A program made the position numbers and the translations under genes. From Comamonadaceae bacterium (lineage in GTDB: Bacteria; Pseudomonadota; Gammaproteobacteria; Burkholderiales; Burkholderiaceae_C), in NCBI GenBank assembly GCA_009996515.1, contig JAACZV010000025.1, positions 1-64,000 of the forward strand: DNA of 64,000 nt. Reading direction: 5' to 3'. Below the pieces are notes generated by a model that had not been told where the DNA came from, made no database searches, and saw only the letters and a program-made list of their open reading frames with translations. Below, one piece after another: positions 34,299-36,759 of this stretch (position 1 is its first letter; every line of letters starts with the position of its first letter).

Positions 34299-34409
34299 CG
34301 CGGCCGTCAGGCGGACCGGGCGCCGCCGCCGGCGTCATCCTCCCAATGGCGGAGGCCTTTTGCCGGCCGCCGTCCGATGATGGCTGGCATCCAGCCAGCG
34401 GAGGGCGCC

Positions 34410-35270
34410 ATGAGCACATGCACGGTCGATGAGGGCCCGCCCGCGGGCCTGCAGATGCTGGGGCGACGGTCGCTGCTGGCCTGGTTGGGCGGTCTGGCGC
34501 TGCCTGCCACGGCCCTGGAGCCGCTGCTGGCGCGCAGCGCGCCCATGGACATCGACCCGACGCCCTACCTGGTCAGCGAGAAGCTGGACGGCGTGCGGGC
34601 TCTGTGGGACGGCGAGACGCTGAGATTCCGCAGCGGCCGCCGCATCGCGGCGCCGGCCTGGTTCCTGGCGGCCCTGCCCGAGCCGGCGCTGGACGGCGAA
34701 CTGTGGATGGGACGGCGCCGTTTCGAGGCGCTGTCCGCCACGGTCCGGCGGGCCCAGCCGGTGGAGGCCGAATGGCGCCGCCTGCGCTATCACGTCTTCG
34801 AGCTGCCGGCCGGCGAGGGCCGCTTCGAGCAGCGTGCCGAGCGGTTGCGTGCGCTGGCGGGCGAGGTCGTCGTGCCCGTGGAGCATTGGCGGCTGGCCTC
34901 CAACGCCCAGCTGCAGGCGCGGCTGCGCGAGGTGGTGGCGGCGGGCGGTGAGGGCTTGATGCTGCATCGCGCCGACGCGGCGTTGGCGTCGGGCCGCAGC
35001 GATCTGCTGCTCAAGCTCAAGCCGCAGGCGGACGCGGAAGGCCTGGTCGTGGGCCATGAGCCGGGACGCGGGCAATGGGCAGGCCAGCTCGGCGCCCTCG
35101 TGGTGCAGACGCCCGAGGGCCTGCGCTTCAGGCTGGGCAGCGGCTTCAGCGCGGCGCTGCGCCGCAATCCGCCGCCCATAGGCGCAACCGTCACCTACCG
35201 CTATCGTGAGCTGACCGCCAGCGGCAAGCCGCGCTTTGCGAGCTTCGTCCGCGTGGCCGACGAGTTCTGA
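34410..35270 (+). CDS. Exported ATP-dependent DNA ligase (LigE-like)
   Basis: This 286-residue minimal ATP-dependent ligase has the nucleotidyltransferase lysine in SEKLDGVRALWDG (motif I, about residues 54-66), an RSGR motif Ia, DGELWMGR (motif III, about 96-103), GEGLMLHR (motif IV) and DLLLKLKP (motif V). A C-terminal OB-fold follows. The N-terminus carries a twin-arginine-like signal (LGRRSLLAWLGGLALPATA), as in periplasmic Lig E enzymes linked to uptake or extracellular DNA; that role is inferred. GGAGGG precedes the ATG at 34410. It ends 3 bp from the stop of a convergent SOS-controlled small ORF. Confidence 0.85.
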   Translation: MSTCTVDEGPPAGLQMLGRRSLLAWLGGLALPATALEPLLARSAPMDIDPTPYLVSEKLDGVRALWDGETLRFRSGRRIAAPAWFLAALPEPALDGELWMGRRRFEALSATVRRAQPVEAEWRRLRYHVFELPAGEGRFEQRAERLRALAGEVVVPVEHWRLASNAQLQARLREVVAAGGEGLMLHRADAALASGRSDLLLKLKPQADAEGLVVGHEPGRGQWAGQLGALVVQTPEGLRFRLGSGFSAALRRNPPPIGATVTYRYRELTASGKPRFASFVRVADEF

Positions 35271-35273
35271 GCC

Positions 35274-35354
35274 TCAGAGCCAGCGCAGGATGAGCTGCAG
35301 CCAGCGGGGCAGCGGACGGCCGGGGACGTAGTTCTGGCGGTAGTGGCTGTGCAT
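35274..35354 (-). CDS. 26-residue basic/hydrophobic peptide ORF under a LexA box
   Basis: A short ORF starts with ATG (35354) and ends TGA at 35274. It encodes a peptide with a His/Tyr/Arg/Asn-containing N-terminus and a basic amphipathic end, RPLPRWLQLILRWL. AGGAG at 35362-35366 lies 7 bp before the ATG, and a near-perfect LexA operator with an overlapping TATAAA sits directly upstream; no other gene could use that operator. The layout (SOS box, short leader, tiny hydrophobic peptide) resembles SOS-induced membrane peptides such as TisB, but there is no sequence similarity I can claim. Expression is unproven. Confidence 0.55.
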   Translation of the reverse strand: MHSHYRQNYVPGRPLPRWLQLILRWL

Positions 35355-35370
35355 GGTCGGGCTCCTGAAA

Positions 35371-35398
35371 CGAATACTGTAATTTTATACAGTATTCG
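35371..35398 (-). promoter_or_regulatory. LexA operator (SOS box) with embedded promoter
   Basis: A 28-bp palindrome has perfect 10-bp arms (CGAATACTGT and ACAGTATTCG) around an AT-rich 8-bp centre, i.e. CTGT-N8-ACAG with TA flanks, nearly the enterobacterial ideal. On the minus strand it contains TATAAA (35384-35389), a plausible -10; a -35 is weak (TGGTCA at 35406-35411). Repression by LexA would block the 26-codon ORF. Confidence 0.85.
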
Positions 35399-35424
35399 CG
35401 GAGCCTGACCAGCCCTCTGCGGGT

Positions 35425-36759
<1,335 letters not shown>

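Follow-up and report, generated by a model that had tools for sequence, protein, structure and literature searches.

Which gene is served by the LexA operator that lies between argG and an ATP-dependent DNA ligase gene in the 64,000-nucleotide stretch of DNA analysed here (the window)? LexA cleavage after DNA damage derepresses LexA-regulated genes, and the preliminary description of the window had pointed to a 26-codon open reading frame (ORF), with no other gene placed to use the operator. This arrangement was borne out: argG (35425..36741) shares the minus strand with the ORF and ends upstream of it, and the ligase gene (34377..35270, plus strand) converges; a role of the operator for either was rejected on grounds of side or strand, and both are treated as context, outside the unit. 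Along the minus strand, the operator CTGTATAAAATTACAG (35377..35392) is followed by 22 nt that include the ribosome-binding site AGGAG (35362..35366), and then by the ATG, 26 codons (MHSHYRQNYVPGRPLPRWLQLILRWL; ORF 35274..35354, minus strand) and TGA at 35274.

The CTGT-N8-ACAG operator, the TATAAA within it on the minus strand, the AGGAG 7 nt before the ATG and the ORF were all found as previously described, and the perfect palindrome around the operator was recovered (35371..35398), its arms being 11 bp about a 6-bp centre, one base pair longer than had been stated. The single sigma-70-like site between 34900 and 35900 (TGGTCA-18-TAAAAT, 35382..35411, minus strand; a consensus match only) overlaps the operator and is directed at the ORF, against a mean of 0.0 in shuffles. 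CTGT-N8-ACAG occurs once in the window; shuffled windows held 0.6 on average and at least one in 43 of 100 shuffles, so that a lone operator in 64 kb is not in itself significant, and palindromy is by itself no argument either, since the window contains a second perfect 11+6+11 palindrome (n=2).

The wider genome (4.58 Mb) carries 14 CTGT-N8-ACAG sites, whereas the reversed pattern, used as a control, occurs once. Not all of the 14 precede a gene that could be named: boxes directly precede recA, a helicase-like gene and imuA (NF033429, above cut-off), and a SRAP-domain (SOS-response-associated peptidase) gene lies near one. The lexA gene (PF01726) of the same genome (G000) has two upstream boxes, CTGGATGAAAATACAG and CTGGACAAATTGCCAG, 19 bp apart, which are only near-consensus and were thus missed by the exact pattern. 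A box over the promoter, lexA itself and other SOS genes with the same class of box, sequence features expected of a LexA regulon, were thus found in the window's genome. A near-perfect box, CTGTATGTATATACAG, was also seen at G000:C1:185912-185927 upstream of a 200-aa ORF without a Pfam match, possibly another unnamed SOS gene.

Conservation of the ORF was examined in Roseateles including Pelomonas, which is the genus in all counts given here (20 genomes, the window's own among them); 18 loci came from named records, and R. saccharophilus DSM 654 (L096) carries the gene. The ORF was found in all 20 genomes, each time with exactly 26 codons from the homologous ATG, one locus having an extra in-frame ATG immediately ahead of it (L049), and the operator was kept in all 20, its end lying 20–24 bp ahead of the homologous ATG; the boxes read CTGTATAAA (19 genomes) or CTGTATACA (one), followed by N3-ACAG. 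Nucleotide identity in the genus was 79% over the ORF but only 40% across the preceding 60 bp, 31% across the following 60 bp and 30% from -150 to -90. The pN/pS ratio of the whole ORF was 0.38, falling to 0.25 for codons 5–18, as against 0.67–1.89 in the five other frames, and none of 200 column shuffles reached 0.38 or lower. The genus sequences are related, so that conservation counts are non-independent events, while the contrast between frames is unaffected by relatedness. Conservation of the reading frame in relatives had been named beforehand as the check to make, and loss of the frame beside a persisting operator as the outcome that would speak against a peptide; the frame was kept at the ratio given, and no such loss was met among the 20 genomes, all of which retain both. 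Judged by these substitution patterns, the ORF frame is under protein-level selection.

On the frame test (pN/pS against the other frames and column shuffles) a chance ORF was rejected. A leader peptide was rejected as well, since no gene follows closely on the same strand and the RNA is no more structured than expected by chance (z 0.35). Conservation of the operator and its spacing would also suit an incidental ORF at a site acting as a LexA-controlled non-coding RNA, leader peptide or decoy, but this explanation is contradicted by the pN/pS and frame tests, by a reading frame and stop codon that are the same throughout the 20 genus genomes, by a protein motif common to other genera, by the lack of a same-strand gene close downstream in the window and by the fold score; the sequence evidence speaks strongly against it and we regard it as highly improbable. 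In Rfam there was no match at cut-off, and one sub-threshold match to an animal miRNA was taken as chance. A LexA-controlled protein-coding gene at 35274–35354 is, in our assessment, very probable.

Relatives of the peptide extend beyond the genus. A first profile (A1), built from the Roseateles peptides, gave weak full-length matches in other genera, and the loci of these matches, when read, showed similar ORFs behind LexA boxes. The second profile (A2) had 15 rows, some of them chosen for their box, and family membership was judged by motif on reading each locus. The A2 search of 399 genomes of the GTDB family f1 gave matches with E ≤0.01 in 79 (6 in the genus) and none in 320. Its 83 matches comprised 6 in the genus, 64 read first, all members and drawn from 61 genomes and 29 genera, and 13 read later, which included two members by motif (G045 and G269, with 1-mismatch boxes) and 11 non-members. 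Outside the genus the family thus amounts to 66 loci, spread over 63 genomes of 30 genera, all of the same GTDB family. Five of the 11 non-members (L213, L216–L218, L222) are one conserved longer protein containing RQNYxPS, a resemblance to the N-terminal motif of the peptides that is likely coincidence.

Among the 64 non-genus loci read first, an exact CTGT-N8-ACAG stands within 260 bp upstream in 51 and within 70 bp in 47; it is absent from 13, four of which have no box even at one mismatch, and two of the 29 genera (g60, g104) show no box. Because some A2 rows had been picked by their box, the unbiased count was restricted to the 52 matches from genomes without an A2 row, of which 40 had an exact box no more than 260 bp away and 44, if one mismatch was allowed, a box within 70 bp; with 14 boxes spread over 4.58 Mb, as in the window's genome, chance would place one in a 260-bp stretch about 0.1% of the time. 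A control scan of 28 weak-match loci reached to 500 bp. Both loci with an exact box there (L064, L073) belong to the family, as does L063, whose box has one mismatch, and the remaining 25 loci (23 distinct places), not judged members, had no exact box. Two exact LexA boxes 18–19 bp apart precede the peptide in three genera (L108, L109, L161, L158, L171), and the peptide occurs in three different copies in one genome (G066: L176, L181, L189) and in two in another (G250: L154, L177).

Wider samples gave little. Eight of 399 genomes matched in the order sample, namely the window's own, one of the same family and six with partial matches outside the family, none of them convincing and none with an exact box within 500 bp; in the class sample the only match among 185 genomes was the window's own. 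Since neither sample yielded a convincing outside match, at the sensitivity used the peptides appear to be restricted to this GTDB family, in which they span at least 31 genera including Roseateles. Two look-alikes outside the family and without a LexA box, RQFYRPRSYKLPPWKKRIYRW in a 37-aa frame (L149, G532) and MRQHYTPKPAPIPRW in a 61-aa frame (L146, G518), are chance or distant relatives. The earlier proposal of an undescribed SOS-controlled small peptide is thus well supported, with frame, operator and spacing present throughout the genus and the peptide recurring in 30 further genera.

The genes around the peptide are less constant. Of the 18 named Roseateles loci, 12 have the peptide gene adjoining argG, and in the other six neither argG nor other window neighbours were found within 3 kb; five of these six have another upstream neighbour in common, by eye only a GDSL-type hydrolase. 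In other genera, 24 loci with some 1.5 kb of flank showed, among the clusters listed, no neighbour common to more than two genera, and a neighbour common to two genera in at least three genus pairs. As the neighbours change while box and peptide stay, the unit is, on gene order, the box plus the peptide, standing alone and not forming an operon. In Pelomonas aquatica (L103) argG, the peptide and murB are adjacent, and the interval from peptide to murB yielded no relative of the window's DNA ligase. A contig labelled Methylotenera (JAIPCJ010000049.1; L101) carries the Roseateles argG-peptide-ligase locus with an argG 98% identical to the window's, and its label is probably wrong. One family peptide from another genus found no match in a plasmid search and a single weak partial match in a phage search, and a scan of viral contigs with the window's DNA ligase found nothing. 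Box, coding frame, joint conservation and independence from neighbours are, at the level of sequence, demonstrated.

Alignment of 43 rows gave the consensus MxxxxRQxYRPxPxRxPxWLRRxWxWL, in which M1, R6, Y9, P11 and P16 are invariant and W18 and W25 nearly so, and the family motif may be written [YFL]RQxYxP...[LV]PxWLRRxWxW[LF]-stop. In 63 of 64 loci W stands next to last, the ends being WL, WF or WC, and lengths run from 25 to 36 residues, apart from a single peptide of 40 residues whose start is doubtful. Of 76 distinct peptides, 73 carry a net charge between +3 and +6. Over the nine C-terminal residues the hydrophobic moment averages 0.40, compared with 0.26 when shuffled (a median of 5.6% of shuffles were as high). 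In the 76 peptides the chain continues for only 9–10 residues beyond the last proline, runs without charged residues, His or Pro reach a length of 10 at most, and hydropathy over 19 residues peaks at 0.42; on these values no stretch is predicted to be able to cross a membrane, and interfacial binding by the amphipathic tail is possible. The window peptide had no Pfam, NCBIfam or PHROG match, and five other members likewise had none, save for one weak PHROG match (E 0.048).

What the peptide does may be approached through known SOS peptides. TisB and DinQ of E. coli (29 and 27 residues) are described in PMC11449926 and PMC3567139 as membrane-spanning and controlled by antisense RNA, and a toxin of their type, inserting in the inner membrane and dissipating the proton gradient on SOS induction, would agree with the size class, the LexA control, the positive charge and the amphipathic, Trp-rich tail of the family. 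The family peptides, however, have no spanning segment and are too short to cross the membrane, which argues against a pore of the TisB type; their N-terminal half is polar and conserved, and no RNA antitoxin was seen (Rfam, fold, one promoter-like site), although an sRNA of unknown type is possible. The box is also just 22 nt from the ATG, whereas the dinQ ORF is placed 139 nt from its operator in PMC3567139. For the possible membrane activity raised in the preliminary description, a TisB-like spanning peptide is unlikely on the hydropathy and residue spacing. The short linear motifs, strict at either end, together with the cationic character and the missing spanning segment, could also belong to a soluble SOS regulator, one that would bind in a groove of a protein of repair, recombination or translesion synthesis and so modulate it. 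We hold this reading to be possible: imuA and recA are in the same regulon, but no neighbour linkage was seen.

The reading that we tentatively prefer, and hold to be possible, is an SOS division-checkpoint role, for the reasons that the tail resembles the FtsZ C-terminal peptide and that no SulA was found in the genus. FtsZ of the window's genome and of six others ends in EIEIPAFLRKQAD or EIEIPAFLRRQAD (IPAFLRKQAD or IPAFLRRQAD), and codons 15–21 of the ORF (LPRWLQL; 35292..35312, minus strand), a resemblance only, have in common with it an [ILV]-P-x-aromatic-L-[RQK] core. The peptides differ in having Trp for Phe and another extension, Roseateles peptides mostly have Q where FtsZ has R, and RQxYxP is not in FtsZ. 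When a peptide-tail profile was scored against the 45 window proteins, IPAFLRK (7 columns) was equalled by only 2 of 19,303 windows and IPAFLRKQ (8 columns) by 5 of 19,258, for a resemblance noticed post hoc. When the full 12 columns of the tail were used, 224 of 19,078 windows beat FtsZ's best stretch, which is not its tail, and the resemblance vanishes, FtsZ ending too soon to fill these columns. By extrapolation, a few hundred windows of the whole proteome would do as well as the FtsZ tail, and since the search was made post hoc with the FtsZ motif already in mind, the resemblance is to be taken as a lead.

SulA (PF03846) was found in none of the 20 genus genomes, the E. coli positive control being detected, and the peptide is itself no SulA by domain, the window peptide and five other members lacking any Pfam match. 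In the wider family PF03846 matched weakly in 24 of 369 genomes, 18 above cut-off, in frames of 97 and 246–387 aa, and the peptide is present in three of these genomes as well (G056, G245, G287); all 10 of the matches that were read proved to be ImuA above the NCBIfam cut-off.

In the account that we favour, that of a stand-alone SOS gene, LexA would occupy the box, covering the gene's own -10 region, until DNA damage leads to its cleavage and, as established LexA biology would predict, to derepression of the peptide gene. A short mRNA read leftward, with a leader of perhaps 20 nt judging from the -10 position, would then yield the 26-residue cationic microprotein, which, under the division-checkpoint reading, may restrain cell division during repair. 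Its tail might do so as a competitor of the FtsZ C-terminal peptide in binding a partner such as FtsA. That such mimicry displaces FtsZ from its membrane tether in SulA-less betaproteobacteria and halts division during repair is a more doubtful proposition than the checkpoint role itself. As proposed, it would differ from both of the division inhibitors described in PMC4211646. SulA of gammaproteobacteria appears there as a larger protein that disrupts FtsZ polymerisation, and the mimicry would make a checkpoint without blocking it. SidA of Caulobacter is given as an inner-membrane protein interacting with FtsW; likened by description, it matches the family peptide in SOS induction and size (29 residues), with the division role here a proposal, but the family peptide has no spanning segment and would not act on the septal synthase complex.

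SOS regulons are usually compiled from annotated genes, and ORFs of such length are normally omitted. A 2015 study reportedly examined LexA motifs in betaproteobacteria. Text searches of an open-licence library, a scope that most subscription papers fall outside, yielded no description of this LexA-boxed peptide family. The hypothetical genes hypA and hypB are presented in PMC3323433 as predicted LexA-regulated genes of betaproteobacteria with several chromosomes, hypA being said there to have no homologues outside that group, and on this description hypA does not seem to correspond to the family peptide, although a link between them is possible.

Still unnamed and distributed over at least 31 genera, this LexA-boxed microprotein family looks like a real part of the bacterial DNA-damage response. 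In Roseateles, since no SulA was found in the genus, the peptide gene is a direct candidate for halting division after DNA damage, and mimicry of the FtsZ tail, if true, would represent an SOS checkpoint achieved by molecular mimicry.
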